From Pararcticibacter amylolyticus (GTDB taxonomy: Bacteria; Bacteroidota; Bacteroidia; Sphingobacteriales; Sphingobacteriaceae): a stretch of 64,000 bases of DNA. Of the stretch, positions 11,475 to 39,300 are shown piece by piece. How positions within the stretch are numbered: position 1 is the stretch's first letter; the number at the start of each line of letters is the position of its first letter. A program made the translations under genes and the position numbers. The stretch spans positions 45,496 to 109,495 of the forward strand of contig NZ_QEAS01000008.1 in assembly GCF_003130405.1 (NCBI RefSeq), given 5' to 3'. The notes below the pieces were generated by a model, which did no database searches, was not told the origin of the DNA, and saw only the letters and a list, made by a program, of their open reading frames with translations.

Positions 11475-12041
11475 GTGGCAAATTACAACGTATTTTCCGA
11501 TCAGCAGCTTCAATCTTTATTAAATGAAGGTGATGAACTTGCATTTACTGAAATCTATAACCGTCATTGGAAGTTTTTATACACAGCTGCATACAACGTT
11601 TTAAGACATAAAGAAGATACTCTTGATATTTGTCAGTCTGTTTTTATGTGGATGTGGGAAAATCACCAGGATATTACCATCAAAACCAGTTTACGAGCTT
11701 ATCTCTATACAGCTGTTAAGTATAAGGTAGCTAATTTAATCCGCCAGGGTAAGGTAAGAGAATCGTTCCTGGAGGATGTCCTGGGCAGTGAAATCCGGGC
11801 AGATGAGAAGCTCGAGCTGGAAATTAAGGAACTCAGACACTTTATAAGTCAATTGATAAATGAATTACCCGATAAATGCAGGGATGTTTTCTTATTGAGC
11901 CGGGATGAGCATTTAAGCCATAAGCAGATTGCCGAACGGTTAGGTATTTCTGAAAAAACTGTCGATGATCACATTACGCGCGCGTTGAAGAAGTTGCGGG
12001 CATCTTTGGGCAAGATGGCAACTATTTTTATTTCTTTCTAA
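11475..12041 (+). CDS. ECF-type RNA polymerase sigma factor (sigma-70 family)
   Basis: At 188 residues it has the usual ECF size, with only regions 2 and 4. Region 2 shows FTEIYNRHWKFLYTAAYNVL and the core-binding LDICQSVFMWMWENH helix. Region 4 ends in the HTH LSHKQIAERLGISEKTVDDHITRALKKLR. It starts with GTG; an upstream ATG at 11459 is out of frame. It is followed after about 118 bases by a FecR anti-sigma factor and then by a SusC with an STN domain. By family knowledge this forms a trans-envelope relay: ligand-loaded SusC signals through its STN to FecR, which frees the sigma factor to transcribe the downstream genes. Confidence 0.94.
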   Translation: MANYNVFSDQQLQSLLNEGDELAFTEIYNRHWKFLYTAAYNVLRHKEDTLDICQSVFMWMWENHQDITIKTSLRAYLYTAVKYKVANLIRQGKVRESFLEDVLGSEIRADEKLELEIKELRHFISQLINELPDKCRDVFLLSRDEHLSHKQIAERLGISEKTVDDHITRALKKLRASLGKMATIFISF

Positions 12042-12158
12042 ATCGACCGAAATTTTCTTTCTGATTTACAGTTATTTAATAATTTATTAAACTTTTCTCA
12101 ATTTTCGAACCGGTGTTCGCACGCTTTTATGTGCCTTACATATTATAGCGCAGGCGAT

Positions 12159-13304
12159 ATGGACATCAAATCATTCAACAACCTGGTTGATAAGGTTAAT
12201 AATAATACGGCTACAGATGAAGAACTGGCGCAATACAACGCCTGTTTGAACCGCTTAATGCCGGGAACAACAGATTGGACGCAACTTAGCGCCGAAAGTC
12301 CGGAAATTATAAAGGCCGAACTCTGGCGACGCATACAAACCGCCCGCAGTCCTGCTAAAATACGCACTATATGGCCCAGGATAGCAGTAGCTGCTTCAAT
12401 TGTTTTAGCAATATCAGTTGGTAGCTATTTTATGATTTACAAGAATAATGAAGAGGTACCCTATTTTGCAAACGACATCTTACCCGGCCGTAACCAGGCA
12501 ACGCTCACACTGGCTAACGGGCAAAAGATTATTCTCACCATGGGTTTATCCGGGCAACTGGCGCAACAGGGAAATACCACCATTGGCGTAAGCAGTCAAA
12601 ATGCCATAACTTACACTACCTCGGGCGCAGACACCCATTCAGCCGTAACCTATAATACCTTATCCACCGCAGTCGGAGAGCAATCGCCATATCCTTTGGT
12701 TTTACCCGACGGCACCAGGGTTTGGCTTGATGCTATGTCTTCTATTACATTTCCCGTATCGTTTAAGGGCAAGGACCGGACGGTGAAGGTTTCGGGTGAA
12801 GCTTATTTTGAGGTAGTTCACAACGATGCCCAACCCTTTAAAGTGATCCTTAAAAATCAAATTGTGGAGGATATCGGTACGCATTTTAATATCAGCGCCT
12901 ATGATGACGGGAGTGAAACCACCACTACTCTGCTGGAGGGGGCTGTTAAAGTTTCCCTCAGTGGTACCGTTCCGCATGGTAGTCGGCAAGAGCTGCTTTT
13001 AAAACCAGGTCAGCAGTCTGTTTTGAAAGGGAACTCTCTCTCTGCGGTTGATGTTGATCCGCAGGAAGCCATTGCCTGGAAAAACGGGTATTTCCGCTTT
13101 AACAACGAAAATATCCGGAGCGTCATGCTGCAACTTTCCCGCTGGTATGATATTGAGGTCCAATATCTAGGTCCTGTACCAGACGAGAAATTTTATGCCA
13201 CAAGCTCGCGGGAAAAGAATATCAGCGAAGTGCTGACTATGCTGCAAAAAACCAAAGGGGTTCGTTTTAAAATTGAAGGAAGGAGGGTTACTGTTATGCA
13301 ATAA
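12159..13304 (+). CDS. FecR family anti-sigma factor
   Basis: The protein has three parts. An N-terminal cytoplasmic segment of about 75 residues would hold the sigma factor. A single membrane helix follows (IAVAASIVLAISVGSYFMIY). The periplasmic FecR domain starts near EVPYFANDILPGRNQATLTL and includes LPDGTRVWLDAMSSITFPVSF and GEAYFEV. The C-terminal DUF4974 region (RSVMLQLSRWYDIEV to FKIEGRRVTVM) is the STN-like part expected to contact the SusC. I chose ATG 12159 (MDIKSFNNLVDKV); an in-frame ATG at 12129 adds ten residues. A hairpin separates this gene from the SusC gene. Confidence 0.93.
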   Translation: MDIKSFNNLVDKVNNNTATDEELAQYNACLNRLMPGTTDWTQLSAESPEIIKAELWRRIQTARSPAKIRTIWPRIAVAASIVLAISVGSYFMIYKNNEEVPYFANDILPGRNQATLTLANGQKIILTMGLSGQLAQQGNTTIGVSSQNAITYTTSGADTHSAVTYNTLSTAVGEQSPYPLVLPDGTRVWLDAMSSITFPVSFKGKDRTVKVSGEAYFEVVHNDAQPFKVILKNQIVEDIGTHFNISAYDDGSETTTTLLEGAVKVSLSGTVPHGSRQELLLKPGQQSVLKGNSLSAVDVDPQEAIAWKNGYFRFNNENIRSVMLQLSRWYDIEVQYLGPVPDEKFYATSSREKNISEVLTMLQKTKGVRFKIEGRRVTVMQ

Positions 13305-13333
13305 ACATTAACTCAAACGGTAATCAACGAGAA

Positions 13334-13361
13334 AGCCATCCTGATTGGCGTCGGGATGGCT
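13334..13361 (+). terminator. Hairpin between fecR and susC (candidate attenuator)
   Basis: Perfect 8-bp arms AGCCATCC and GGATGGCT enclose a 12-base loop, 30 bases after the FecR stop and about 110 before the SusC start. No clean U-tract follows. It may lower read-through from the sigma/anti-sigma genes into susC. The second ECF locus has a hairpin in the same place. Confidence 0.4.
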
Positions 13362-13469
13362 GAAGTAGGATTACTTTAATAATTATAATCAACTTATTAA
13401 ATCATCGCGAAGAGCCTGGTGCATCCTGACAAATGAAAAGGCAATCCGCATTAAACCCTACTGCAACAA

Positions 13470-16400
13470 ATGTACACTTTTTACTTAAAGTTCCTTGTGC
13501 AGCCGCCTGGCCGTACAGTAAAAAAAATCCTGTTGATTATGAAGTTAAGCTCTCTTCTGCTGATCACAGTCATATTGCATGTCAGCGCCAAAACTTCGGC
13601 CCAAAAAGTTACATTACTGGCAAAAAATGCCCCTCTTGTCGAGATTTTTAATCAGATCAGGGCACAAACAGGATACGATTTTGCCGTCACCTCTGCAACT
13701 CTTATGGATGCCAGGCCGGTGACGATCGAGGTGAAAAATGCCGAACTGCATGACGTTTTAGAAAAGATATTTGATAAGCAGCCTTTAGATTACTCAATTG
13801 AAAACAAATCCGTAATTGTATCCAGGAAAGTCCCGTCAATCGTTGAAAATGTTAAAAGTAAAGCTGCCCGGCTTTTTCACTTGCCTGCACCTGTAAAAGG
13901 CAGGGTAGTTGACACTCTGGGAATGCCCCTGATTGGCGCTACTGTCATTTTAAAGGGCACAAACTACCGTGCTTTTACAGATAATGACGGAAACTTTGTT
14001 TTTCCCTCCGTTCCGCACGGCCGCTATACACTGGCAATAAGCTATGTCGGGTATGCGAAAGTAGAAATGAACATAACGGTAGATGGCCAGGAACTGAATT
14101 TCTTTATAATTACGCGTTTAACTGCTTCCTCGCTTGACAAGGTACAGATTGTTGCTTACGGTAAAGAATCTAAACGCTTTAGTGTTGGAACGGTACATAC
14201 TGTTAGTGCCGAAGCAATAGAAAAACAACCTGTGACTAATCCTTTACTGACGCTGCAGGGACAGGTGCCCGGTTTATCCGTTATTGCCATGAATGGTGTA
14301 CCCGGTTCAACAACCTTGTTACAGGTACGCGGTCAAAACGGACTGGCAACTTCCCAGAACTTTAAACCGTATGACCAGCCTCTCTTCTTAGTAGACGGGG
14401 TACCTTTTGCACCGCAGAATGTTAATATAAATCAGTTGTCAAATCTTGCCACTTCGCAGAGTTTTAGCGGCGGAATAAACCAGGCAACCGGCCTCGGTGC
14501 TTTTAACGGTATTAACCCCAACGATATTGAAAGCATTACCATACTTACTGGTGCCAATGCAACAGCTATTTACGGCACCAAGGGATCTAACGGCGTTGTT
14601 TTGATAACCACAAAAAAAGGGAAAGCAGGTAAAACCACTGTCGATATCAATGTAAACTCACAGGTAAACCAGGTTGCCAGGCCGGTGAAACTGTTGAGTA
14701 CCGGCCAATATATTCAATTAAGAAAGCAGGCGTATGAGCTGGACGAGATTGAACCCAGCGGCGATCCCAATAACTATTCCGGTTTTGCGCCCGACCTCTT
14801 TCTTTTCGACCAGGGTAAATATACCAACTGGCAAAAGGTCATTCAGGGAAACTCCACTCACAATTCAGATATTCATCTTAGCGTGTCTGGCGGAACTGAA
14901 AATAGTACCTTTATGGTGTCAGGCGGCTATACACGCTCAGATTATAATTATCCCGGTAATTTCGCTGACCAGCGATATAGCCTGCATAGCGCTCTGACCG
15001 CTGCTTCAGCAAATAAAAAGCTCACCCTCTCGCTGATAGCAGATTATTCCTATGATCAAAATAATTCTGCAGGTATGGGAGGCTCTGCGCAAGTGATTAT
15101 GGCGCCTAATACCCCCGATCTGAGGGATGCGGACGGTAATTTAGTGTGGAACTACAAAGGCGTACCATTTGAGAATAATTTTTATGCCTCATTATTATGT
15201 CCTACCAACCTGGAAACCTACAATTTCAATAGCTCTTTCAACATAAATTATGAACTGATAAAAGGGTTAACTATTGGCGCTAATGTAGGCTTTAGCCGTA
15301 ATACCAATGCCGAACATTCTATTGCGCCAAAGATTGCGCAATATCCTTCATCATACGCCCAAAGCAATGCAGCCTTTGCAAATGGCGCCGCACAGGACAT
15401 TAACATTGAACCTCAAATAAATTATGAAAAGAATATGCGTAAAAGCATGTTGACTGTATTGTTAGGAGGTACTTATGAAAAGAACACCACCAATACCTAT
15501 CAGGTACAAGCGTATAACTATTCAAACGATAATTTTCTCAATTCAATAAACGGAGCAACCTCACTAACTTCCTGGGACGGGCAAGGGCTGTATAAATACG
15601 TCGCCTTGTTTGGACGGTTAAAATATATTTACAATCAGAAGTATATTTTAGAATTTAGCGGCCGGAGAGACGGTTCAAGTAATTTTGGTCCGGGCAGACA
15701 ATTCGGCACTTTTGGTTCTGCCGGTGCCGGCTGGATCTTCTCTGAGGAGAAAGGCTTCGAAAACACTCTGCCTTTTATCAGCTTCGGCAAGCTTTCCGGA
15801 AGTTACGGAACTACGGGGCAGAATGCGTCTCAGAGCTATCAGTATCAGCCATTATACAGCCCCTATCCATACGGTAATACCACCCCTTTCCAGGATATTA
15901 AACAAATTATTCCTGTCAACCTTTACAACCCCGATTTTCATTGGGCAACAAAAAGATCGATCGACCTGTCTCTGGCTCTTGGTTTTTTTGCCGATCGTTT
16001 GTTGTTAAATGCGACTTATTACAGGCAGCGTCAGGACGATCAGCTTGTTGCCTACCCATTGGCCGGACAAGCCGGTTTTTCAACAGTATTTGAAAACCAG
16101 GACGCCACTGTTCAGAACAAAGGATGGGAGTTCACCTTGTCATCATCCAATATAAAAACCCGTAATTTCACATGGACAAGCAACTTCAATTTAACCTTCA
16201 ATAGAAATAAACTCCTCTCATTTCCCAATCTGGAATCATCATCCTATGCTCAGCAGTATGTTGTAGGCCAGCCTACGTCTGTTATGTTTGGCTATAAATA
16301 TAAAGGGGTAAATCCGGCAACGGGATTATTTGAGTTTTACGCAGCCGACGGAACGCTTACATCCCGTCCCCAATATGGCACGGCGGCGACTGGCGGCGAC

Positions 16401-16919
16401 CAGGTGATCATCGGAAACCGGGAGACTAAATATATGGGTGGTTTTGGCAATACCTTTACTTACAAAAAGCTGAGCCTGTACGTTTTCTGCCAGTTTAACA
16501 GCAGTATGCAGCCCAATGCCCTTTCGGCCCTTTATAATAACAGTGTTCCTGGTTATCAGGCCAATGTACCCGCTTACATACTGGGTAAATATTGGACTGC
16601 TCCCGGTCAGAATGCCGAAATTCAACGTTTAGCAAGTAGTTACAATTCACCGTATGTTGACCCTGTATATAGCTTTGTTCAGTCAACCGGAGCCTACTCA
16701 AACGTTACTTACCTGAGGGTTAAAACGGCGTCGTTATCTTATGACCTGCCTGCCGCCTGGCTCGCAAAGGCTCATATTAAGAATGGCAGTGTTTTCGCCA
16801 ATGCTCAAAACCTGTTCACCTTCAGCGACTACAAGTTCGGCGATCCGGAACAACCCGGCAATTTTGCGGCCTTCCCCTTACAACGTATCCTCGCATTTGG
16901 CTTAAATCTCAAACTGTAA
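13470..16919 (+). CDS. SusC/RagA TonB-linked outer-membrane protein with STN domain
   Basis: This 1149-residue outer-membrane transporter is the channel of a SusCD pair. After a signal peptide (MKLSSLLLITVILHVSAKTSAQ, core Met24 at 13539) comes an STN signalling domain (about 45-110; VEIFNQIRAQTGYDFAV). A carboxypeptidase-regulatory-like barrel follows (about 143-222; VKGRVVDTLGMPLIGATVILKG). The TonB plug comes next, with QVPGLSVIAMNGVPGSTTLLQVRG and the SusC signature TGANATAIYGTKGSNGVVLITTKKG. The rest is the beta barrel ending NLKL. The STN ties it to the upstream sigma/FecR pair. Unlike the two SusCs of the PUL regions, no glycoside hydrolase lies near it; the following genes are SusD, ABC transport and MutS-like genes. 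The substrate is unknown and need not be a glycan. Confidence 0.95.
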   Translation: MYTFYLKFLVQPPGRTVKKILLIMKLSSLLLITVILHVSAKTSAQKVTLLAKNAPLVEIFNQIRAQTGYDFAVTSATLMDARPVTIEVKNAELHDVLEKIFDKQPLDYSIENKSVIVSRKVPSIVENVKSKAARLFHLPAPVKGRVVDTLGMPLIGATVILKGTNYRAFTDNDGNFVFPSVPHGRYTLAISYVGYAKVEMNITVDGQELNFFIITRLTASSLDKVQIVAYGKESKRFSVGTVHTVSAEAIEKQPVTNPLLTLQGQVPGLSVIAMNGVPGSTTLLQVRGQNGLATSQNFKPYDQPLFLVDGVPFAPQNVNINQLSNLATSQSFSGGINQATGLGAFNGINPNDIESITILTGANATAIYGTKGSNGVVLITTKKGKAGKTTVDINVNSQVNQVARPVKLLSTGQYIQLRKQAYELDEIEPSGDPNNYSGFAPDLFLFDQGKYTNWQKVIQGNSTHNSDIHLSVSGGTENSTFMVSGGYTRSDYNYPGNFADQRYSLHSALTAASANKKLTLSLIADYSYDQNNSAGMGGSAQVIMAPNTPDLRDADGNLVWNYKGVPFENNFYASLLCPTNLETYNFNSSFNINYELIKGLTIGANVGFSRNTNAEHSIAPKIAQYPSSYAQSNAAFANGAAQDINIEPQINYEKNMRKSMLTVLLGGTYEKNTTNTYQVQAYNYSNDNFLNSINGATSLTSWDGQGLYKYVALFGRLKYIYNQKYILEFSGRRDGSSNFGPGRQFGTFGSAGAGWIFSEEKGFENTLPFISFGKLSGSYGTTGQNASQSYQYQPLYSPYPYGNTTPFQDIKQIIPVNLYNPDFHWATKRSIDLSLALGFFADRLLLNATYYRQRQDDQLVAYPLAGQAGFSTVFENQDATVQNKGWEFTLSSSNIKTRNFTWTSNFNLTFNRNKLLSFPNLESSSYAQQYVVGQPTSVMFGYKYKGVNPATGLFEFYAADGTLTSRPQYGTAATGGDQVIIGNRETKYMGGFGNTFTYKKLSLYVFCQFNSSMQPNALSALYNNSVPGYQANVPAYILGKYWTAPGQNAEIQRLASSYNSPYVDPVYSFVQSTGAYSNVTYLRVKTASLSYDLPAAWLAKAHIKNGSVFANAQNLFTFSDYKFGDPEQPGNFAAFPLQRILAFGLNLKL

Positions 16920-16931
16920 AAAATTATTCCC

Positions 16932-18341
16932 ATGACAAAGATATTTTCTTATAAAAATAGAATCCTGGCAGCGGGGACGTTTATTATCCTGAGTACTACT
17001 CTTTCGTGTAAAAAACTAATAGAGATCCCGCCCAACCCGCCAACAAGTATTACCCGGCAGGCGGCATTTGCAGACAGCGCCACGGCCATGTCTGCTGTTG
17101 CTGGCGTATATTCTTTTACGCCGAGCACAAACGGCAATGGCATTCCTTACCATAATGGCCTGTTTGATGTAACTACGGCACTCGCAGGTAACGAAGTAGC
17201 TTATATGGGCACTTACGGGGACGATGCTCAATATTACAGTCACACTCTTACACCGCAAAATGACAGACTAAACGAGTTATGGTCGGTACCTTACGCCGGG
17301 ATTTATCAGGTAAATGATATCCTGGCCAACATCACCGGCAACAATAAGTTATCTGCTTCATTTGTAAAGCAAATTACAGGAGAAATGGAGTTCGTAAGGG
17401 CTTTTATTTATTTTTACCAGGTAAATTTGTTCGGCGGAGTGCCGTTGGTTACTTCCACTGATTACACCACCAATACCCGGCTTCCCCGGGCTACGGCAAC
17501 AGAAATCTATGACCAGATCTTTAAGGATCTCGACGGCGCAGCTAAGAAACTACCGGCGACTTACCCCTCAGCCGGGCATGTGCGGCCTAACCTCTACACC
17601 GTCATAGCATTACGGGCGAAAGTTAACCTTTACCGGGGCAATTGGCAAGCTGCTTATAACGAGGCTGATTCGGTTATTACGCGAGGTGGTTTCAGTCTTT
17701 TAACTGATCTTAACAGCGTATTTTTAGAAGAAAGCGCAGAGGCAATCTGGCAGGTGCCTGTTCTGGACGCCTACCAGGGATCGGGAGATGCCATGATTTT
17801 TGTATCCCAGGGTGGGATACCCAATTATTTGGTAACAGATTCTCTGCTGAATAAGTTTGATGATAAAGACTTGCGCAAGGCAGCCTGGCTCGGTTTTAAC
17901 GTGGTAGACAACGATACGCTGTATTACCCTTTTAAGTATAAAGATGTTGTGCCAACAACTCCTGCCACAAACTTTATGCTGCTCAGGTACGCCGAAATGT
18001 ATCTGATCAGGGCTGAAGCTGCTGCGCAACTGGGAGGACTGGCTGAAGCAGTGGATGATATAAATATTATCCGTCGCAGGGCAGGTTTAACACCTGTTTA
18101 CCCGGCAACCCAAACCGCTGTGCTGGATGCCATACGACAGGAGCGAAGGCTGGAGATGTGTTTCGAATTTGGGAACAGGTTTTTTGACCTGAACAGAACC
18201 AGTACCGATAACAAATACCCTTCCTCCGGGCAGGCGCCCGCCGTATTGCCCGGATGGAAGCCAGATTTCGCCATCTTTCCGGTGCCCCAAACGCAGCGAA
18301 CTTTAAACAGTCGTCTTACGCAAAATCCGGGCTATAATTAA
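16932..18341 (+). CDS. SusD/RagB surface lipoprotein
   Basis: This 469-residue lipoprotein starts 12 bases after the SusC stop and is its surface lid. A lipobox (LSTTLSC, about residue 21-27) is followed by KKLIEIPPNPPTS. The SusD-like N-terminal region (AVAGVYSFTPS; LWSVPYAGIYQVNDILANI) and the TPR-type helices around FVRAFIYFYQVNLFGGVPLVT are clear. The C-terminal RagB domain (LLRYAEMYLIRAEAAAQLGG; RQERRLEMCFEFGNRFFDLNR) is intact. It is shorter than the PUL SusDs here (641 and 646 aa), suggesting a smaller or different ligand. About 100 bases separate it from the ABC ATPase gene, with no evident promoter or terminator. Confidence 0.94.
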   Translation: MTKIFSYKNRILAAGTFIILSTTLSCKKLIEIPPNPPTSITRQAAFADSATAMSAVAGVYSFTPSTNGNGIPYHNGLFDVTTALAGNEVAYMGTYGDDAQYYSHTLTPQNDRLNELWSVPYAGIYQVNDILANITGNNKLSASFVKQITGEMEFVRAFIYFYQVNLFGGVPLVTSTDYTTNTRLPRATATEIYDQIFKDLDGAAKKLPATYPSAGHVRPNLYTVIALRAKVNLYRGNWQAAYNEADSVITRGGFSLLTDLNSVFLEESAEAIWQVPVLDAYQGSGDAMIFVSQGGIPNYLVTDSLLNKFDDKDLRKAAWLGFNVVDNDTLYYPFKYKDVVPTTPATNFMLLRYAEMYLIRAEAAAQLGGLAEAVDDINIIRRRAGLTPVYPATQTAVLDAIRQERRLEMCFEFGNRFFDLNRTSTDNKYPSSGQAPAVLPGWKPDFAIFPVPQTQRTLNSRLTQNPGYN

Positions 18342-18437
18342 CAATGTAATAAGCTATAACAAACCAATTGCAATTGCTTCCCGGGCAGTCATTCAACCTC
18401 CCGGGGCAGGCAGTTCCTGTTTGAGAAAAACGAAAAA

Positions 18438-19370
18438 ATGGAAAATTCAATTTTAAGCATTAAGAATTTGTCGCACCGCTACAGCACCTCCTGGGCCATC
18501 CGCGACATTAACCTGGAAATAAACCGGACAGGAATCCTGGGCTTGCTGGGTTCCAACGGAGCAGGTAAATCCACTACCATGAATATCATGTGCGGTGTTC
18601 TCAACCAAACAGAGGGTACTGTACTGATAGACGGCATAGACATCCGTGAAAACCCGGAACTGGCAAAAAAGCAGATCGGGTTCCTCCCTCAGAATCCGCC
18701 GCTATACCTGGATCTGACCGTAGATGAATACCTCGTTTATACTGCCGAGCTCCGCAAAATGGAGCACAAGGACATAAAGCCCGCCCTGGAAGAGGCGAAA
18801 GAACGATGCGGGATTTCCCATTTCAGTCACCGCCTGATTAAAAATCTGTCGGGTGGTTATCGTCAGCGCGTAGGGATAGCGCAATCGATCATTCATAAGC
18901 CTAAACTGGTCGTGATGGACGAGCCGACCAACGGCCTAGATCCCAATCAGATTACGGAAGTCCGGACATTGATCAAGGAAATTGCTGTAGAACATGCAGT
19001 CATCTTCTCTTCTCATGTTTTGTCTGAGGTGCAAATGCTATGTAAGGATATCAAAATGATCGCAGACGGGCGGATCGTTTTTTCCGATACGATGGATGCT
19101 TTTAACAATTACGTAGAGCCGCACAGTGTGTTGATGCAAATGGAAAATCCGCCGCCGGCAGCCGAACTGCTAAGCATAAACGGAGTCGATAAAGTGGATT
19201 TTATTACAGAACGGCAGGCAAGGGTTTATTTTACGGGCGACCAGGAGATCACCGAACACCTTATTGCAGCGGCCGTACACAACGGATGGCGTTTAAGGGA
19301 GATTAGTCTTGATAAAACTGCCCTTGATGAGATCTTCAAACAATTATCCGCAAAATCAACCCATTCTTAA
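18438..19370 (+). CDS. ABC transporter ATP-binding protein (GldA-like)
   Basis: The 310-residue nucleotide-binding subunit has Walker A LLGSNGAGKSTTMNI, the Q loop around GFLPQNPPLYLDLTVDEYL, the ABC signature LSGGYRQRVGIAQ and Walker B KLVVMDEPTNGLDP, followed by the switch His in IFSSHVLSE. The remaining 90 residues are a C-terminal domain typical of ABC-2/GldA-type exporters. The next gene encodes the matching membrane and periplasmic partner, so the two should form one exporter-type complex. In gliding Bacteroidota GldA-F-G form an ABC unit, but this copy is embedded behind a SusCD pair and need not serve motility. Confidence 0.92.
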   Translation: MENSILSIKNLSHRYSTSWAIRDINLEINRTGILGLLGSNGAGKSTTMNIMCGVLNQTEGTVLIDGIDIRENPELAKKQIGFLPQNPPLYLDLTVDEYLVYTAELRKMEHKDIKPALEEAKERCGISHFSHRLIKNLSGGYRQRVGIAQSIIHKPKLVVMDEPTNGLDPNQITEVRTLIKEIAVEHAVIFSSHVLSEVQMLCKDIKMIADGRIVFSDTMDAFNNYVEPHSVLMQMENPPPAAELLSINGVDKVDFITERQARVYFTGDQEITEHLIAAAVHNGWRLREISLDKTALDEIFKQLSAKSTHS

Positions 19371-19383
19371 TTAATCCCCTATA

Positions 19384-21819
19384 ATGAAACTAATTTTTAA
19401 AATAGCAAAAGCAGAGCTGCGCAACTTGTTTTATTCGCCCATAGCGTGGTTTTTAACCATCGCCTTTATGGTACAGTGCGCAATTACCTATACCAGCGTT
19501 TTAAATCAGATCGCCATGACGCAGGAGATGGGCGGAATGGACTTAGAATATCTGACGCAATTGACAGCCCGCGTTTTTACAAACCCCTATGAGGGATTAT
19601 TCAGCAGTATTATGCAAAACCTGTATTTGTATATTCCGCTGTTAACGATGGGCCTCATCAGCCGGGAAATCAACGGCGGCACCATCAGCCTTCTTTATTC
19701 TTCACCGGTGAGGATCAGGGAAATTGTCTTTGGTAAATACCTGGCTATGATGGGATATAGCCTTGTGTTAATGGTGGTTATCGGCATATTCCTGGTGGCT
19801 GGCGTCCTCCATGTCAAGTCTGCGGATTACGGCATGCTTTTATCGGCGGCGCTGGGATTTTATTTACTGTTATGTGCGTATTCAGCTATCGGTCTTTTCA
19901 TGTCTAGTTTGACAAGCTACCAGATAGTTGCAGCAGTAAGCACCTTTGTGACTATAGGAGCCCTCAGTTATATCGGCAAATTATGGCAGGGCATAGATTT
20001 CGTCAGGGACCTCACTTACTTCCTGTCACTTTCAGGCCGAACCCAGCACATGCTGCAGGGACTTATCACCACCAAGGATGTGCTTTACTTCGTTGTTATA
20101 GTATATATATTCCTGGGCTTAAGCATTTACAAATTGCAGTCAGGCCGCGAAACAAAGCCATGGTATGTCACTTCCGGCAGATATGTTTTCATAATAGTCT
20201 CTGCACTGATTATCGGATATGTAAGCTCCCGTCCGGGCTTTACCGGTTACTGGGATACAACAGCGAACCACGATAATACGCTTACCCCAAATACTCAGAA
20301 AATAATCAGGGAACTGGGCGGTGATAAACTTGAAATTACATCATATACCAATTTCCTGGATAACTACTACTGGTTCGGGATGCCTGAACAGCGTAACGAT
20401 TACCTGGGCCGCTGGGAGTCTTATTTACGCTTTAAACCCGATATTGAATTTCATTATGTGACTTATTATGACAACCCTTTGAGCTTGGGATACAACATTT
20501 TTGATTCTTATAAAGGCAAAAGTCTTGAAGAGATAACCGAGCAAAGGGCTAAAGCGTCGGACCTGAAGATGTCGGTGTTAAAGACTCCTGCGCAGATACA
20601 AAAGGAAATTGATCTGAAACCCGAACTGAACAGATTTGTAATGAAACTGGCTTACAAAGGCAGATCAACCTATTTGCGCGTTTTTAATGATCAGATCGTC
20701 TGGCCAATGGAAGCCGAAGTCTCAGCCGCAATAAAAAGGCTCCTGCAGGCTAAAATTCCAAAGATCGTTTTTGTTACAGGTGAAGGAGAACGCAAAATTG
20801 GCAAAAAGGGCGACAGGGAGTATAAAACGCTCACTACCGATAAAACATTCAGGTATGCGCTGATTAACCAGGGGTTTGATATCGATACAGTATCCTTAAA
20901 TACTCAGGATATTCCGGGCGGTATTGCTGCTTTAGTGATAGCGGATCCGCAGCATGAACTTAGTGCCGTTGCCATCGGAAAGCTGGAGGATTTTATTGCG
21001 AAAGGCGGCAATTTACTAATTGCCGGAGAGCCGGGCAGGCAGCACATACTGAATCCTTTATTAAAAAAACTGGGTGTACAGATGACGAATGGAATGCTTG
21101 AACAGCTAAGCGAAGATCATGCCCCGACGCTGGTATTACCTGCTTTAACTAAAACTGCGATCAGTTTCGCTAAGATGCTTGATAAACCGTCAGTAGACAC
21201 TTTACCGGTATCAATGAACGGCGTTGCGGCGTTATCCTATCACGATAGCACTGGATTTAAGATAAAACCTCTGCTGTTAACAAAAGCGGGCGTTGCCGCT
21301 AATTCTACCAGGCGCAATCCCGATCTTGATCTTGTCAATGTCAAAGTGGACGAAAATGCTCAGCCTGGCGGCATCGTTCAAGTTGGAGGAGGCGGGCCGG
21401 TTTCTGTAACAGTTATGGGCAGCGGAACATCCGTAACCGGAAAGAAAAAGGTGAAGAAGCCTCTTCTTAAAAACCAAAATGGGGTCGGAGAGGTCTTTGC
21501 TACCGCATTAGCTTTAACACGACAGGTTAACGGCAAGGAGCAGCGCATCATTGTGAGCGGCGATGCTGACCTTCTTAGTAACTCAGAGCTTGGAAGATAT
21601 GAGCCAAGGATAGTGAATTTCTTCTTTAGCACAGCTCTGTTTAGCTGGCTGGACTATGGCCGGTTTCCGATTGACGCTTCGCGTCCCGACGCAAAGGACA
21701 ACCGGGTAACGGTAAGCACGGACCACGTATCATTTTTAAAGATCCTGTATATTTACGTTATACCTGGTTTGATACTGGTTTTCGGGACCGTCTTCCTTAT
21801 TCGCCGTAAAAGAAAATAA
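19384..21819 (+). CDS. Fused GldF-type ABC permease and GldG-type periplasmic protein
   Basis: This 811-residue protein joins two functions. Residues 1-250 are an ABC-2/GldF-type permease with about six membrane helices (for example YSLVLMVVIGIFLVAGVL and LLSAALGFYLLLCAYSAIGLFM). After one more helix (YVFIIVSALIIGYVSS) residues 290-770 are a periplasmic GldG-like domain (DNTLTPNTQKIIRELGGDKLEITSYT; the Rossmann-like IAALVIADPQHELSAVAI; IAKGGNLLIAGEPG). A final helix (LYIYVIPGLILVFGTVFLI) is followed by a basic tail. A Gly-rich stretch near residues 660-690 is unusual. It starts 13 bases after the ATPase gene and ends two bases before the first MutS-like gene, so all are likely cotranscribed. 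The substrate is unknown. Confidence 0.9.
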   Translation: MKLIFKIAKAELRNLFYSPIAWFLTIAFMVQCAITYTSVLNQIAMTQEMGGMDLEYLTQLTARVFTNPYEGLFSSIMQNLYLYIPLLTMGLISREINGGTISLLYSSPVRIREIVFGKYLAMMGYSLVLMVVIGIFLVAGVLHVKSADYGMLLSAALGFYLLLCAYSAIGLFMSSLTSYQIVAAVSTFVTIGALSYIGKLWQGIDFVRDLTYFLSLSGRTQHMLQGLITTKDVLYFVVIVYIFLGLSIYKLQSGRETKPWYVTSGRYVFIIVSALIIGYVSSRPGFTGYWDTTANHDNTLTPNTQKIIRELGGDKLEITSYTNFLDNYYWFGMPEQRNDYLGRWESYLRFKPDIEFHYVTYYDNPLSLGYNIFDSYKGKSLEEITEQRAKASDLKMSVLKTPAQIQKEIDLKPELNRFVMKLAYKGRSTYLRVFNDQIVWPMEAEVSAAIKRLLQAKIPKIVFVTGEGERKIGKKGDREYKTLTTDKTFRYALINQGFDIDTVSLNTQDIPGGIAALVIADPQHELSAVAIGKLEDFIAKGGNLLIAGEPGRQHILNPLLKKLGVQMTNGMLEQLSEDHAPTLVLPALTKTAISFAKMLDKPSVDTLPVSMNGVAALSYHDSTGFKIKPLLLTKAGVAANSTRRNPDLDLVNVKVDENAQPGGIVQVGGGGPVSVTVMGSGTSVTGKKKVKKPLLKNQNGVGEVFATALALTRQVNGKEQRIIVSGDADLLSNSELGRYEPRIVNFFFSTALFSWLDYGRFPIDASRPDAKDNRVTVSTDHVSFLKILYIYVIPGLILVFGTVFLIRRKRK

Positions 21820-21821
21820 AC

Positions 21822-23168
21822 ATGCTATTTACTACAGACAAGCAAACACAGGAAGATCTGAACATCTATGGCAAACAGGGAACGGAGTCAATCCTTTCCC
21901 TGTTTAACAAGACTTCCACATTGAATGCCGCCAGGATGCTTGAAGAGATGTTTAACTATCCTCTTTCCGACGCCGGGGCCATCAATAAACGAAGTGGTAT
22001 CATCCGCTATCTGAAAGTCACACGGGCTGCATTTCCATTCAGCTCCGAACTTTTTGATCAGGCAGAACCATACCTGGCCAATATTGACGAAAGAACGAAG
22101 CTTTCCACAGAAAAGCATTCCCTCGAAAAAAAACTGACTAACCTGGTTGCCGCTGACGCAGATTACAAACAGATAGTGAACGGAATAACAGCGCTGGTTG
22201 AGATTATAAAGCAACTGGACGACTTTCTGAAAAATACGCTGCTGGTAACCGGAAGCCCCTTAAATGAGGATCCGGAAACTCTAGAGATAGTCAGCCATTT
22301 TACCGCCGAACCCGTAAGCCGCTTGCTGGAGGAAAACCGGAAGAATAAATTGTCAAAAGAAAAACTGGCTATTTACGATACGCTGCTTCGTTTTCGGCAC
22401 AGGGAAACTGTACAGCGGATTCTCAGGTATGTGTATCAGTTGGACGTATATATAACCGTGGCCCGGGTTGCGGCAGAGCGGAACTATGTATTTCCCGATG
22501 CCCTGGATAAAGGCAGCCAAAGTCTGGTGATTGAAGGCTTTTATCATATGCAGATCAAGAATGCAGTCCCCAATACCCTCATTATCAACTCTGAAAGTAA
22601 TGTGGTGTTTTTAACGGGTGCTAATATGGCCGGCAAATCTACTTTCATGAAATCGCTCGGAATTGCCATGTACCTGGCTCACATGGGATTTCCGGTAGCG
22701 GCAAAGAAAATGGAATTTTCTGTATTAGACGGCATTTATACCACCATCAACCTTCCGGATAACCTGGGCATTGGCGCGAGCCATTTTTATGCAGAGGTGC
22801 TGCGGATAAAAAAAGTAGCGAAAGAACTGAGCGCAGGAAAGAACATCTTCGTGATTTTTGATGAGCTTTTCAGGGGGACCAATGTGAAGGATGCTTATGA
22901 AGCCACCATAGCCATCACCTCAGCGTTCGCCCAAAAGCGTAACAGCATATTTGTAATCTCAACCCATATCATTGAAGCAGGCCCGGTGCTGAAGGAGCGC
23001 TGCGCCAATATCAGCTTCAGCTACCTGCCCACCAGGATGAAAGGTTCCACGCCTGAATATACATATACTCTGGAAACCGGCATCACTTCAGACCGCCATG
23101 GGATGATCATTATTCATAATGAAGGAATTCTGGACATATTAAAGAGAGGAAAGGGTATCACCAAATGA
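21822..23168 (+). CDS. MutS-like ATPase lacking mismatch-binding domains (copy 1)
   Basis: This 448-residue protein matches the back half of MutS. A helical core/clamp-like region (about 1-240) opens with TQEDLNIYGKQGTESILSLF. The MutS_V ATPase follows, with Walker A GANMAGKST (Gly266 on), the N3-like region FPVAAKKM and Walker B IFVIFDELFRGTN. Its end is THIIEAGPVL and DRHGMIIIHNEG. The N-terminal mismatch-reading domain (Phe-x-Glu) and connector are absent, so classic mismatch repair is unlikely. The next gene is a paralogue overlapping it by four bases; the pair could form a heterodimeric ATPase, as MutS proteins work as dimers. Its place behind a SusCD/ABC operon is unexplained. DNA binding is not demonstrated by the sequence. 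Confidence 0.9.
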   Translation: MLFTTDKQTQEDLNIYGKQGTESILSLFNKTSTLNAARMLEEMFNYPLSDAGAINKRSGIIRYLKVTRAAFPFSSELFDQAEPYLANIDERTKLSTEKHSLEKKLTNLVAADADYKQIVNGITALVEIIKQLDDFLKNTLLVTGSPLNEDPETLEIVSHFTAEPVSRLLEENRKNKLSKEKLAIYDTLLRFRHRETVQRILRYVYQLDVYITVARVAAERNYVFPDALDKGSQSLVIEGFYHMQIKNAVPNTLIINSESNVVFLTGANMAGKSTFMKSLGIAMYLAHMGFPVAAKKMEFSVLDGIYTTINLPDNLGIGASHFYAEVLRIKKVAKELSAGKNIFVIFDELFRGTNVKDAYEATIAITSAFAQKRNSIFVISTHIIEAGPVLKERCANISFSYLPTRMKGSTPEYTYTLETGITSDRHGMIIIHNEGILDILKRGKGITK

Positions 23169-24478
23169 GTTTTATAGCCGATCAACAAACCCTGGAAGAC
23201 TTGAATCTTCTTGGCAAGTACAAGCAGCATTCTATCTTCAGCCTGTTCAATACCGTAAAAACTGCGGGTGCTGAAAAACTACTGATGGAAATGTTCCGCA
23301 TGCCGCTTACCGACCCTGAAGCGATCAACAGGCGCAGTGCCATATTCCGGTATTTCCAAAGCAGGCAATTGCCTTTTCCCTTCAGCAACGAACAGTTCAG
23401 CGCCATCGACGACTACCTGAGCGATAGTGGCGGTAAGTATTACCTCACGGTGCTGCTTGCACTCGGAAGGAAAAAGCTGCTTGGCGCTGTGGTGAGAGAT
23501 GAAAAGTATCAAAACACCCGGATCAGTTTACAGCAAACCATAAAGTTGATAAATGACAGTAAAATATTTATCAATGAGCTTTCGAATGATAATGACCATC
23601 CGTTTTACGATGAATTGCTTGCCGCAAAAAAGATCCTTAACAATCCAGATCTGGGGGAGCTTGAAACATGGCAAAACAGCGGGCTGTCATTAATGAAAAT
23701 GGCTAAATATGAACATTTGCTGAAGCGTAAAATGCAGGCAGACCTGTTGCTGGTCATCCAGACTTTTTATAAGCTCGATTTATACATTTCTGTGGCTAAC
23801 CTGGCCCGCGAAAAAGGATTCTGTTATGCAAATGCATTCCCTAAAGAAGCCGGCATATTGAAGGCTGCAGCGCTCAGGCATCCGGGAATTAAGCGGGCGG
23901 TAGGAAACCCGGTATTCTTTAATCACGGCAATAATATGATTTTTCTTACCGGTGCCAACATGGCGGGCAAATCCACATTCATGAAAGCATTGGCTATAAA
24001 CGTTTACCTGGCGCACATGGGTTTTCCGGTAGCGGCAGACAATATGGCATTCTCGGTGAAAGACGGTATATACACGTCAATAAACGTACCCGACAACCTG
24101 AATTTGGGGTACAGTCACTTTTATGCTGAAGTACTGCGTGTTAAAAAAGTAGCCGAAGAGGTGAGCAGCGGCAAAAGTCTTGTGGTTATTTTTGATGAAT
24201 TGTTTAAAGGCACCAATGTGAAGGATGCCTATGATGCGACACTGGCCGTTACTACTGCTTTCAGTGAATACGAAGAATGCCTGTTCATTATTTCAACCCA
24301 TATCATTGAAGCTGGTGAAGTGCTTCAGGAACGGAATAACATCCAGATGCTTTATCTGCCTACCCTTATGCAGAATAATATTCCTGCCTATACATATCAG
24401 CTTCAGCCAGGTATTTCCGGCGACAGGCATGGCATGATGATTATAGAAAAAGAAGGAATATTAGAGCTTTTGAGATAG
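23165..24478 (+). CDS. MutS-like ATPase lacking mismatch-binding domains (copy 2)
   Basis: This 437-residue paralogue of the previous gene starts inside its stop codon (ATGA overlap), a mark of translational coupling. It opens with QQTLEDLNLLGKYKQHSIFSLF, closely parallel to copy 1. The ATPase has Walker A GANMAGKST from Gly263, then FPVAADNM, Walker B LVVIFDELFKGTN and THIIEAGEVL. It ends DRHGMMIIEKEGILELLR. As in copy 1, domains I and II of MutS are missing. The strong conservation of both ATPase sites argues that both copies are active, not one degenerate. A strong terminator follows 62 bases after the stop. The role is unknown. Confidence 0.9.
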   Translation: MSFIADQQTLEDLNLLGKYKQHSIFSLFNTVKTAGAEKLLMEMFRMPLTDPEAINRRSAIFRYFQSRQLPFPFSNEQFSAIDDYLSDSGGKYYLTVLLALGRKKLLGAVVRDEKYQNTRISLQQTIKLINDSKIFINELSNDNDHPFYDELLAAKKILNNPDLGELETWQNSGLSLMKMAKYEHLLKRKMQADLLLVIQTFYKLDLYISVANLAREKGFCYANAFPKEAGILKAAALRHPGIKRAVGNPVFFNHGNNMIFLTGANMAGKSTFMKALAINVYLAHMGFPVAADNMAFSVKDGIYTSINVPDNLNLGYSHFYAEVLRVKKVAEEVSSGKSLVVIFDELFKGTNVKDAYDATLAVTTAFSEYEECLFIISTHIIEAGEVLQERNNIQMLYLPTLMQNNIPAYTYQLQPGISGDRHGMMIIEKEGILELLR

Positions 24479-24540: not shown

Positions 24541-24588
24541 AAATCGCCCCACCTCACTCCAGGTTAAGCAACCGGGGCGATTTTTTTT
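24541..24588 (+). terminator. Intrinsic terminator after the MutS-like genes
   Basis: Arms AAATCGCCCC and GGGGCGATTT pair perfectly over ten bases around a roughly 24-base loop and run directly into a string of eight T. This is a strong rho-independent terminator for the preceding plus-strand operon. It may also act weakly on the convergent AraC gene. Confidence 0.85.
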
Positions 24589-28745: not shown

Positions 28746-31178
28746 ATGGTGTTGAATTACTTCAAAAGCAGCCTGAGGTACCTTTACCGGAATAAAATGT
28801 TTACAGCGCTCAATATCCTTGGCTTAAGTATAGGACTGAGTGCGTGTATCGTCATATCGGGGGTAGTTTATTATGAATTCAGTTTTGACAGGAAGCTTCC
28901 CGACCGGGAGAACATCTATCGTGTTGTTTCGGATTTTGTCTATGAGGGCAGAGAGTCGCTGAACGGCGGTGTTACAAAGCCTCTACCTGAAGCTATAAGA
29001 GCACAGGTGGCAGGGATTAAGAGGGTTGTTCCTGTTTTCGTACAACATCTGAACACTGCTGAGGTGTCCGGTGGAGATCAGACAAAAAAAATTGAAGAAC
29101 CGGAAGATATTGTGAGCACTGACAATACGTATTTTTCGATGGTGCCTTATCACTGGATTGCAGGGAACAGCCGGGCAGCTCTTTCGAAACCTGATGCCGT
29201 AGTGCTCACTCAGAGCCGTGCGAAGGAATATTTTCCCGGTGTTGACCTTCTCAGCCTGATAGGAAAGACCATCCTATACAATGATACATTAAAGAAGGAG
29301 GTCTCCGGAGTGGTAAAAGATCTGGAGGGGCCTACTTCTTTTACGGGCAAGGAGTTTTTTGCAATACCGCTTAAAACCTATTCTGCTACGGAATGGGCTA
29401 CGACCAATGGGGATAACAAACTCTACATCCAATTAAATCCGCATACAGATCGCGGAATAGTTTCCGACCGGATCAACCGGATATTGAAGAACAAGTGGAA
29501 TGTTTTTAAAGACGAGCCCTTCTGGAGAACTACAAAAGTAAGCAACAGGCTTATCGCTTTTGATGACCTGCATTTTACTCCTGATATCAGTGAAGGAGTA
29601 CACAAAGCCAGCAGGGAGGTAATGTACGGATTGATACTAATAGGTGTTTTCCTGTTGCTGCTGGCTTCTATCAATTACATTAATCTGAGCACTGCTCAGA
29701 TATGGCAGCGAACAAGGGAGTTCGGGGTTAGAAAGACGCTGGGAAGCGGAAGGCTCCGTCTGATTGGGCATGTGTTAACAGAGACTTTCTTAATTACGCT
29801 GCTTGCTCTCTGTTTATCGTTCCTGTTTTCGAAACTGATTTTTTTCGCCCTGAAGAACATTATCCCGGAGGGAGCGGAACAATACCTGGATCCCGGAAGC
29901 ATTTCCCTGTTTATCGCAGCTGTCTTAATTCTAGTTCCGCTGATTGCCGGAAGCTATCCTGCATACCTCATCACCAGGGTTAATCCATTGAGGATCATCC
30001 GCAACCATATGCTACTTCCCCGCAGCAGCAGTCTTGGGCTGCGGAAGGGCCTTATAATCTTCCAGTTTTGCGTGGCCCAGATCTTTATAGTCTGCACCTT
30101 TATCGCTGCCTCGCAAATCCGTTACCTGATGAAGAAAGACCCCGGGTTTAACAGGGAGGCCGTATTACTGGTTGAAGTTCCGTGGAAATTACGCTGGAAG
30201 GAACAGTATAAGAGCAAGCAATTTTCCCTGATTAATGAGTTGAGAAACGTGCAAGGCATTACGGATGTATCCCTGGGAGATCCGCCGCTGACAGACGGAT
30301 ACTCGAGTTCTCTGTTCTCTTACACGGATAGCCGGGGAAAGAAAGCTGAGGGGCAATTGTACAGAAAGGTGGCCGATACCAGCTATCTTAACCTATACAA
30401 GATACAGCTGATTGCGGGCAGAAACCTGATTCCTGCTGATACGGCGAAAGAAATGCTCATCAACGAGACTGCGGTAAAGCATTTTGGATTTAAATCGGCG
30501 GAAGATGCTGTTGGGAAAATGCTGGACGATGGCGGAAAGAAGCTGACGATTGCAGGTGTGGTGAAAGACTTCCACTCCCAGTCTTTCTATAACAACATCG
30601 TTCCTGTTTCTATTTTGATGGAAAAACAGGATCTGGCAACATTTAATATCAAACTCAGCACAGAAGAAACAGGCAACTGGCAAACAACCATTGAGTCGAT
30701 CCGGAAAAAGTGGTCGCAATTTTATCCCTCTCATTATTTTGATTACAAGTTCTACGATCAGCACCTGGAAAGTATCTATAAGCAGGAAAGAAATATTTCA
30801 TTGCTTATAAATCTTGCCTGTATTATATCTGTGGTGATTAGTTGCCTTGGTTTGTTTGGATTAGCTGCTCTCACCGCTTTTCAACGGACCAAGGAGATAG
30901 GTATCAGAAAAGTAATGGGAGCTACAACCATCGAAGTGGTACAAATGCTGTCGAAGGACTTTATGAAGCTCGTCCTGATAGCGATTGCTTTGGGATCACC
31001 GGTCGCCTGGTATGTCACGAATAAATGGCTTGAAGGATTTGCCTACCGTGTTCCTGTTCAGTTGTGGGTGTTCTGTGCAGCAGCGGCTACGGCAATAACG
31101 ATCGCTTCACTTACCGTGAGTTCGCAGGCAATAAGAGCTGCAAGAGCCCGGCCGGTAGATAGTTTAAGGAATGAGTAA
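28746..31178 (+). CDS. MacB/FtsX-type ABC transporter permease
   Basis: The 810-residue membrane protein has two MacB-type halves. Each combines an N-terminal MacB_PCD periplasmic region with FtsX-like helices. The first half begins YFKSSLRYLYRNKMFTALNILGLSIGLSACIVISGVVYYEFSFD; FtsX helices (LLLLASINYINLSTAQIWQRTREFGVRKTLG) follow. The second FtsX block is IGIRKVMGATTIEVVQMLSKDF. This layout is common in Bacteroidota, where such permeases pair with separately encoded ATPases for efflux or lipoprotein-type transport. No ATPase gene is adjacent, so its partner is elsewhere. A weak AT-rich palindrome with a T-run follows the stop. Confidence 0.9.
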   Translation: MVLNYFKSSLRYLYRNKMFTALNILGLSIGLSACIVISGVVYYEFSFDRKLPDRENIYRVVSDFVYEGRESLNGGVTKPLPEAIRAQVAGIKRVVPVFVQHLNTAEVSGGDQTKKIEEPEDIVSTDNTYFSMVPYHWIAGNSRAALSKPDAVVLTQSRAKEYFPGVDLLSLIGKTILYNDTLKKEVSGVVKDLEGPTSFTGKEFFAIPLKTYSATEWATTNGDNKLYIQLNPHTDRGIVSDRINRILKNKWNVFKDEPFWRTTKVSNRLIAFDDLHFTPDISEGVHKASREVMYGLILIGVFLLLLASINYINLSTAQIWQRTREFGVRKTLGSGRLRLIGHVLTETFLITLLALCLSFLFSKLIFFALKNIIPEGAEQYLDPGSISLFIAAVLILVPLIAGSYPAYLITRVNPLRIIRNHMLLPRSSSLGLRKGLIIFQFCVAQIFIVCTFIAASQIRYLMKKDPGFNREAVLLVEVPWKLRWKEQYKSKQFSLINELRNVQGITDVSLGDPPLTDGYSSSLFSYTDSRGKKAEGQLYRKVADTSYLNLYKIQLIAGRNLIPADTAKEMLINETAVKHFGFKSAEDAVGKMLDDGGKKLTIAGVVKDFHSQSFYNNIVPVSILMEKQDLATFNIKLSTEETGNWQTTIESIRKKWSQFYPSHYFDYKFYDQHLESIYKQERNISLLINLACIISVVISCLGLFGLAALTAFQRTKEIGIRKVMGATTIEVVQMLSKDFMKLVLIAIALGSPVAWYVTNKWLEGFAYRVPVQLWVFCAAAATAITIASLTVSSQAIRAARARPVDSLRNE

Positions 31179-35998: not shown

Positions 35999-36389
35999 AC
36001 GGGCAGCTCTCCCGATTGCCAGCCTGACAAAACCACTGAACCAAGCCAGGCTCTTCCTGAAAAAGAAATAAAAAAAGTTGTTATGAAGGAACTTATTTGT
36101 ATTATTGTAGTATAGAATAGAACAGAATTTTAAACTTAGATTTATAGTATATGAAGAAATAATACCTGCCATTGCAGCAAAATGTGCAGAGGTAAGCAGA
36201 AGATGTCTTTTCTGCGGTTCCCAATCATTGTTAGCTGAAAAAAAACTAATCACGAAGCGATCTTCACATGGGTATAGCTTCGTTTACTATCACAACCCAA
36301 TTATTAACCATTATGAAACTGCTTTTATGAAGTTAGTCTGCGAATTAGTGTCGCTTTTCTGCGACGGAGACGAAGTCAAAGGGAGGAAA
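35999..36389 (+). promoter_or_regulatory. susC operon promoter, operator and long leader
   Basis: This 391-base gap holds a second copy of the operator. TATTATTG at 36100-36107 runs into TTGTA-GTATA-GAATA-GAACA (36105-36124), differing from the copy at 31234-31258 at four of 25 bases. About 265 bases of leader then separate it from the susC start. I see only a weak stem (AGCCTG/CAGGCT, 36021-36052) past the symporter gene and no other gene. An in-frame extension of susC to 36228 is possible but lacks a good signal peptide. Confidence 0.55.
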
Positions 36390-39300
36390 ATGAACCTTTC
36401 CTTTGTTTATTTTATCTTCTTTTTTCTTCTCGCTGCTGGTGTTAGTGCTCAACCCCCCAAAATTACCATAACGGGTACAGTTGCTGACTCGCTGGGTGAA
36501 AGATTGATCGGGGTAAACGTGGCCGCAGAAGGTAAAAAAGGTATCGGTACAAGTACAGATGCCAATGGGAAATTTGTTCTTGATGTAGAACCTGGAACTG
36601 TTTTAAGGATCAGCTATGTTGGTTTCAGAGACAAAAGAGTGACTGTCAACGAAAGTAACAAAGTTTTAAATATCCTGCTTGTGTCGTCGGGGAAACTTGA
36701 AGAAGTGGTGGTGGTGGCTTATGGAAGGAAACAGAGCAGGGAAGCCATCGTTGGTTCGGTCACATCGGTTTCGCCGGGTGATCTTAAAATACCTGCAAGT
36801 AATCTGACTGCTGCCCTGGCGGGGAAAGTAGCGGGTGTTATTGCTTTTCAGCCGGGAGGGCAACCCGGGGTAGACAACGCTAACTTCTTTATTCGCGGCG
36901 TAACGACATTTGGATATCGGAAAGATCCTTTAATCTTAATAGATAATGTAGAAGTGACGGCTTCTGATTTTGCGAGGTTACAACCCGACGATATAGAAAG
37001 TTTCTCGGTCCTGAAAGATGCCAGTGCAACAGCTTTATACGGTGCGCGGGGAGGTAATGGTGTTATCGTAGTTAAAACGAAAGAAGGCAAAATAGGGAAA
37101 GCCCAGGTTAATGTAAGGCTCGAAAGCGCCATTTCTCAATCGGTCAGAAACCTGGAATTTGCAGATCCGATCACGTTTATGAGGTTAAAAAATGAGGCGA
37201 CCATTGCCCGTTATCCACTTGCAGACCGTCCATATACCGAAAATCAGATACGAAATACACAAGCTACAGTCGACGGTGCACCAGGAAGTAATCCCTTTGT
37301 ATATCCTGCTGTTGACTGGATGGAGATGTTGTTTAAAGACAAAACAAATACGGAGCGTGCTAATCTGAATATCAGTGGCGGCAGCGGCGTTGCCCGGTAT
37401 TATGTTGCAGGTTCCGTTTCAAACGATAATGGTCTTTTGAGAACGGATATAAGAAATAATAATAACAATAACGTTAACTTCAAAAACTACCAGCTCCGTT
37501 CAAATGTCAATATCAATCTCACTAAAACGACGGAACTGGTGGTAAGGCTGTCGGGGAATTTCAATGAGTATAATGGCCCTCGTACCAATGATGCATCTTT
37601 CTCAACTGACTTATATAACTTAGCTACGCACACAAGCCCTGTTGATTTCCCGGCATACTACGAGCCGGATATAGCCAATACGGGCGTTAAACATATTTTG
37701 TTCGGAAATACAGTAGATCCTTTGAGCCAGGGCTCCAAAAATCCAATGCAAACTAATCCCTATGCTGCTTTACTAAGTGGACACAGAAATTTCTCCGAGT
37801 CTAAAATGCTCGCACAGTTCGAAGTAAATCAAGGGTTGGATTTTCTGACGAAGGGGTTAAATATTCACGCAATAGCAAGCACGAACCGTTACTCACGTTT
37901 TGAATCGAGCATGGCTTATAAGCCTTTTTATTACCGGGTCGGTTCATACGATAAATTAGCAAATGCTTACACATTAAACTGGATTAACAATGATCCTGGT
38001 CAGGCGCAGGAATATCTTGATTATATTTTGGACAGAGACAGGCAGGCACAAAACAGCTTTCTGTATTTGCAGGGTTCTGTAGATTATAACCGCGACTTTG
38101 GCGATAACAATGTGAGTGGTGCCCTGATTGGTACTATGCAGCAAACGTCCAACGGGAATGCTGACCGTCTTTTGAATGCCCTGCCTTTCAGAAATCTTAC
38201 ATTAGCAGGAAGAGCGACATATGCCTATAAAAGAAAATATTACCTGGAATTCAATTTTGGATATAACGGGTCGGAACGCTTTTCAGAAAACCATCGTTTT
38301 GGATTTTTTCCGACCATTGGAGCGTCCTGGATTATTTCAGATGAGAAATTCTGGGGAGATTTATCTAATGTTTTCGAACGGGTGAAGATCAGGGGAAGTT
38401 ACGGTTTGGTAGGTAATGACGCCATTAGCGACCGGAGGTTCTTCTATCTTTCTGACGTAAACCTGAACGGAGGAAATTCTGCTGTTTTCGGAGTAAATAA
38501 TGGCTATTCCCGCAACGGAGTAAAAATAAACAACTACGAAAATAACGACGTCACCTGGGAAGTTTCCAGGCAGGCTACCTTAGGATTGGAGCTTACTTTT
38601 CTCAGGGATTTCAAAGTAGTGGCGGAGGTGTTTCAGAATAATAAATCAGACATTCTTCAGGATCGTGCTGATATTCCGGCGGAAATCGGACTGGAGTCGA
38701 CCATATCTGCGAATATAGGCAAAGTCAATTCAAAAGGATTTGAAGTGTCGGTTGACGGTACGCGCAACCTGGGTAATACCTGGTGGATAAAGGCATTAGG
38801 CAGTGTGACCTACTCCAAAAATAAATATACGCAATACGAAGAGCCCGATTATCGCGAGTCCTATAGATTTCATGTTGGCCAACCCGTAAATCACAACTAT
38901 GGTTATATAGCAGAAAGATTGTTTGTGGACGACGAAGAGGCGAGAAATTCTCCCACCCAGAGATTCAGCAATGGAGGCTTTTTACCGCAGGGAGGAGATA
39001 TCAAATACAGGGATTTAAATAATGATGGGGTAATTGACGGCAAGGATCAGACTTATCTGGGCTACCCGAATGTTCCCCAAATGGTGTATGGTTTTGGTCT
39101 GAGCGGTGGGTTTAAGAATTTCGATCTTGCTGCCTTTTTTCAGGGGCAGGCACAGATTTCCTTTATGATCGAGCCTGCGAAAGTCAGTCCGTTTATCAGA
39201 AGCCCCGAGCAGTACTTCAGTTCAGGCGATACTCAATTATTAAAAGCATTTGCAGATGATCATTGGTCGGAGGAGAATCAGAACCTGTATGCGTTATACC

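Follow-up and report, generated by a model that had tools for sequence, protein, structure and literature searches.

Most of what is known about clamps of the MutS type concerns DNA repair and, in the case of MutS2, ribosome rescue. Among envelope systems, the closest described relatives of the locus considered here are the SusCD loci of the polysaccharide utilisation type that carry an ECF sigma factor, FecR and an STN-SusC protein, and the GldA-GldFG transporter of gliding Bacteroidota, and NosDFY offers an analogue for mechanotransmission. MutS2 splits stalled ribosomes and thus acts on a machine other than DNA (PMC10897456), which sets a precedent for a MutS-type ATPase serving such a machine. 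The parts of the operon described below are known individually; their combination, the putatively heterodimeric MutS pair devoid of mismatch domains and the radiation of paralogs were not found in the literature searched, and no description of the operon was found in open-licence papers on MutS with SusC, GldG, M16, Chitinophaga or KamC.

The window analyzed here is the whole stretch of 64,000 nucleotides from a contig of Pararcticibacter amylolyticus, a soil-type Bacteroidota bacterium. Judged by gene order and domain content, eight genes on the plus strand form a putative operon at 11475-24478. The first four encode an ECF sigma-70 factor of the Bacteroidetes type (11475..12041; TIGR02985, 146.1 bits, above the cut-off of 126.4), a FecR-type anti-sigma/sigma regulator with FecR and FecR_C domains and one hydrophobic segment near residue 90 (12129..13304), a SusC/RagA TonB-dependent transporter with an N-terminal STN domain (13470..16919; TIGR04056, 676 bits; STN, 1.1e-07) and a SusD/RagB lid lipoprotein with an N-terminal signal followed by a cysteine (16932..18341). 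They are followed by an ABC ATPase of the GldA/DrrA (ABC-2) type (18438..19370), a GldF-GldG-like fusion (GldFG, 19384..21819) that joins an ABC-2 membrane domain to a large domain with ABC_transp_aux (residues 459-735), and two MutS-like ATPases, MutA (21822..23168), in which only MutS_III and MutS_V are matched, and MutB (23165..24478), in which MutS_V is clear and the N-terminal part of MutS_III falls just below the Pfam cut-off. The first-pass annotation had described a nine-gene plus-strand array; its order, strand, coordinates and domain content hold, and the count is corrected to eight. The gaps it gave (12, 97, 13 and 2 bases and a four-base overlap) agree with the coordinates, which place 12 bp between SusC and SusD, about 96 bp between SusD and the ABC gene, 13 bp between ABC and GldFG, 2 bp between GldFG and MutA and an overlap of 4 bp between MutA and MutB. 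Spacing is looser between the sigma factor and FecR (87 bp) and between FecR and SusC (165 bp), so that joint transcription of all eight genes is presumptive.

The terminator proposed to follow the last gene corresponds to a terminator-like hairpin on the plus strand, AATCGCCCC/GGGGCGATT, located by eye at about 24542-24582 with a T run to 24588; it sits between convergent genes and so may act for both. The scan for promoters and terminators yielded counts near, or at most about 1.5 sd from, the shuffled mean, and its terminator part takes only loops of up to 8, so this hairpin lies outside its reach. With the sigma factor, FecR with FecR_C, STN-SusC and SusD adjacent on one strand, the front of the operon is that of a signaling SusCD locus of the ECF/FecR/STN-SusC kind, and from the encoded families it is plausible that these components act as one switch for the operon.

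MutA and MutB, both of about 440 aa, share 47% identity. Walker A, signature, Walker B and H-loop of domain V are essentially invariant in the 48 MutA and 48 MutB sequences compared, as seen in the motifs GANMAGKST, SHF/Y..E, DELF..GTN and the H-loop of both chains across the 48 loci, which places both proteins among the MutS superfamily ATPases. The predicted model of MutA (pLDDT 84, pTM 0.85) aligns to residues 264-772 of E. coli MutS with Z of about 33, and also to MutS2; it contains the core, lever and ATPase, and the mismatch-recognition and connector domains are absent. In neither protein is the clamp domain (MutS_IV) matched in Pfam, and conservation is lowest at the lever tip, which has a net acidic charge. 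The pair scores far below the cut-offs for mismatch repair MutS (140.6 and 128.3 vs 480 bits; MutS_III and MutS_V only), for MutS2 (82 and 64 vs 400 bits; the protein stops after the ATPase domain) and for the KamC reactivase (121 and 106 vs 300 bits). A true MutS (1033 bits) and a true MutS2 (829 bits) are encoded elsewhere in the genome, and the role outside repair that had been suggested for the pair is therefore probable. In 12 loci MutA and MutB form a single ORF of about 860-900 aa, which is strong evidence that the two proteins would form a heterodimer. A third MutS-like protein of 608 aa with a clear domain V is also encoded elsewhere in the genome (L151:2044-3867), with no SusCD gene in the surrounding 5.5 kb.

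Since the fold and the ATPase are clearly homologous to MutS, the pair could be thought to act on nucleic acid, either regulating or protecting the DNA of the locus or taking part in DNA uptake or recombination, and proteins devoid of recognition domains may still bind DNA or RNA in some form. The missing mismatch-recognition and connector domains, the unmatched MutS_IV and the variable, acidic lever tip speak against this reading, as does co-evolution of the pair with ABC-GldFG (see below). No DNA-handling gene is seen in the labelled loci, a result that also tells against the DNA or nucleotide uptake entertained in the first-pass annotation, and we regard action on nucleic acid as quite unlikely.

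The ABC ATPase is GldA-like and is not assigned as GldA, because it reaches only 264.8 bits against the equivalog cut-off of 402.6 (TIGR03522). GldFG likewise stays below both Gld cut-offs (TIGR03518, 71.8 vs 288.5; TIGR03521, 19.2 vs 389.85), so that the gliding transporter GldA-GldF-GldG is not indicated here, and a true GldG (613.7 bits) is encoded elsewhere in the genome. No solved relative of GldFG is found by sequence; its predicted model is of low confidence (pLDDT 55), and the protein carries a C-terminal hydrophobic helix at 787-805. Residues of about 640-700 of GldFG, in the predicted periplasmic part, are Gly/Val-rich and poorly modelled. NosF is among the solved relatives of the ABC ATPase. 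Another ABC permease, of the MacB/FtsX type, is found in the window at 28746-31178.

An ATPase of the ABC-2/DrrA type could also belong to a self-protection system, in which an antimicrobial peptide is detected through SusCD and FecR and then expelled or inactivated by the ABC-2 pump and its MutS helpers. A lantibiotic-protection ATPase model is among the best matches of the ABC ATPase, though below its cut-off, relatives have peptidases near the locus, and many SusCD variants occur per genome. On the other hand, none of the known immunity transporters was matched closely, PADLOC returned generic ATPase matches only, an importing SusCD would be odd for resistance, and no cognate peptide gene is seen; we hold self-protection to be unlikely. 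Neither is any gene for RiPP biosynthesis seen, in line with the earlier view that a RiPP cluster is unsupported.

The arrangement is not limited to one strain. When MutA was used as a query, 91 of 301 family genomes matched at 1e-60, and a group of tandem pairs could be told apart from a group of single copies; the single-copy group (about 33-41% identity; Pedobacter and relatives) lies outside SusCD-ABC loci and was set aside. Neighborhoods were fetched from Sphingobacteriaceae and Chitinophagaceae, and their ORFs were labelled by BLAST against the proteins of the window. This gave 92 stretches with the pair, about 90 of them distinct (L144 and L148 overlap others), from dozens of species including Mucilaginibacter xinganensis, Chitinophaga arvensicola and C. 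costaii. GldFG lies immediately upstream of MutA-MutB in 86 of the approximately 90 loci, and the usual order is ECF sigma, FecR, SusC, SusD, (lipoproteins), ABC ATPase, GldFG, MutA, MutB, (TlpA), (M16 peptidase). The same-strand run contains SusC in 86 of the 92 stretches, ABC in 85, SusD in 81, FecR in 76, sigma in 67 and M16 in 40, counts that are lower bounds because some stretches end at contig or window ends. Median gaps across loci are 2 bp for GldFG-MutA and -4 bp for MutA-MutB, with starts taken at the first ATG, GTG or TTG, so that outliers are soft. Recurrence in about 90 loci puts the arrangement far beyond chance and supports its reading as one unit. GldFG occurs in 35 of 35 family genomes with the pair vs 59 of 301 overall (P 3e-30, uncorrected for phylogeny and shared operons). 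The taxonomic range is narrow: the pair was found in 17 of 197 genomes of the Chitinophagaceae sample, and it turned up in 5 genomes out of 395 when the phylum was scanned and in 5 out of 295 for the class. We read the locus as a single copy of an envelope transport module that recurs and exists in multiple copies; gene order, adjacency, domain content and joint inheritance are established.

With GldFG as the query, 81 loci were recovered, 78 with SusC, 50 with the MutS pair and 31 with no pair. By these numbers the core is SusCD-ABC-GldFG, to which the MutS pair is frequently added, and the 31 loci imply that the transporter is able to work without MutA and MutB. The pair is an optional part of the unit, and its presence or absence changes at least 8 times on the GldFG tree, with at least one of these changes being an artefact, since L129 ends at a contig end. 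Some loci without the pair have ABC-GldFG placed between sigma and FecR (L114-L116, L120, L142), a position that speaks for the transporter as an inherent part of the unit. In another variant, likewise always devoid of the MutS pair, two GldFG genes flank one ABC gene (L117, L122-L124, L132, L136-L138), often together with DUF4843 (L117, L123, L138). In one genome (G019) the pair is missing from three GldFG loci, but an unlinked MutA-MutB-M16 set is present (L053, L108-L110), which is consistent with service in trans. Other variants include L088, where GldFG is followed by just one MutS-like gene, which may encode a homodimer or reflect a loss, and three loci with fused MutA-MutB (L144-L146) in which a second GldFG follows M16; a scanned gene of the fatty-acid hydroxylase family comes after the second GldFG in L144, and similar ORFs are present in L145 and L146.

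The closest partners of the pair were sought among paralogs of one genome, because correlations across species share the species tree; indeed, in cross-species distances over 34 loci all genes correlate. A Chitinophagaceae genome of 6.7 Mb (G936) yields 47 matches in about 24 loci (L156-L163, L176-L192), whose SusC proteins have a mean mutual identity of only 28%. Protein distances over 19 complete paralogous loci of this genome fall into two blocks, SusC-SusD and ABC-GldFG-MutA-MutB. Correlations are 0.94 for SusC-SusD, 0.86 for ABC-GldFG and 0.95 for MutA-MutB; those of MutA and MutB with ABC or GldFG are 0.73-0.87, and those of ABC or GldFG with SusC 0.38-0.43. For MutA and MutB with SusC the values are 0.53-0.56, which means that the two blocks are not completely separate. 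A second genome (G1028; 21 matches, 7 loci) has the same pattern. The MutS pair thus appears to travel chiefly with the inner-membrane transporter, and SusCD to be more freely exchanged, and the single unit described earlier is refined into two parts: ABC-GldFG-MutA-MutB holds together tightly, and the SusCD front end is attached to it less firmly. These data also bear on the suggestion that the pair is a passenger, duplicated along with the SusCD locus and functionally unconnected to it. The optional presence of the pair and its repeated changes on the GldFG tree would fit such a history, which we nevertheless consider very unlikely, given the place and spacing fixed in nearly all loci with the pair, the intact ATPase motifs, the MutA-MutB fusions, a correlation stronger with ABC-GldFG than with SusC, and a linkage kept across the roughly two dozen copies of one genome.

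As for the cargo, the HxxEH motif is present in 48 of 48 M16 copies, and S41, Met-zincin and trypsin-like peptidases are further neighbors in relatives. Peptides may thus be the likeliest cargo, an assignment that is weak because 225 of 301 family genomes have M16 and the operon at 11475-24478 does not. The SusC of the operon resembles RagA and other solved SusC proteins to a similar degree, and the PDB matches of SusC and SusD give no way of telling peptide substrates from glycans. A polysaccharide utilisation locus is not indicated, as no CAZyme is found among the eight proteins; among the examined downstream genes of relatives, GH2 was encountered once (L064). Two other SusCD loci are present in the window. 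The one at 36228-53015, with SusCD genes, a GDSL lipase and GH95, resembles an ordinary glycan utilisation locus, and the other, at 54101-62640, comprises ORFs judged by size to be of sigma and FecR length, STN-SusC, SusD and DUF4959/DUF5126/DUF5000, with no ABC or MutS genes.

We propose, with about an even chance of being right, that the operon encodes a transport module in which a MutA/MutB heterodimer is a cytosolic ATP-switched clamp or remodeller acting on the transporter or its cargo and not on mismatched DNA. By analogy with the known families, a ligand at the outer membrane would be sensed through STN-SusC, FecR and the ECF sigma factor, turning the locus on. The bulky substrate that SusCD would carry into the periplasm is most likely a peptide, and peptidases encoded in the locus (M16 in many relatives, absent from the copy described here) may cut it there. 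The GldA-like ATPase and the GldF-GldG fusion would constitute an inner-membrane machine of the ABC-2 type that either expels a product or drives a conformational change in the periplasm, the direction of transport being one that we infer only from the ABC-2 class. MutA and MutB, each combining a lever with an ABC ATPase, would then switch with ATP to clamp or remodel the transporter or cargo in the cytosol. Somewhat less probable, at a little under an even chance, is that they represent a new class, a heterodimeric MutS clamp free of mismatch domains that gates or remodels an ABC-2/GldFG machine linked to SusCD import, in a two-ATPase envelope system with about 24 paralogs in one genome; a categorically new MutS role is possible. 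If so, membrane transporters would join DNA and ribosomes as clients of MutS proteins, here of a dedicated heterodimer, and the locus would provide a simple genetic system for testing how the MutS ATP switch is re-used. This large class of SusCD loci, about 24 of them in one Chitinophagaceae genome, would also be mis-annotated as a mixture of mismatch repair, gliding and starch uptake.

Compared with SusCD loci of the polysaccharide utilisation type, the operon has the sigma factor, FecR, STN-SusC and SusD in the usual order; unlike them, it contains no carbohydrate enzyme and has an ABC-2 transporter and a MutS-like pair. With GldA-GldFG of gliding Bacteroidota it shares a GldA-like ATPase and the GldF and GldG domains, which here are fused, all of them scoring below the equivalog cut-offs. 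MutA and MutB resemble MutS and MutS2 in the core and lever, the ABC ATPase fold and the logic of the dimer, but differ from both in a size of only about 440 aa and the organization as a tandem pair or fusion, from MutS in the absence of mismatch-recognition and connector domains, and from MutS2 in the absence of the Smr/KOW region. KamC, the MutS-like reactivase ATPase of lysine 5,6-aminomutase, is likewise a small MutS-like ATPase, and one whose protein target is named, whereas no aminomutase gene is present here. Finally, as in NosDFY, an ABC-2 machine would work with a periplasmic domain, but the periplasmic part is here GldG-like and fused.
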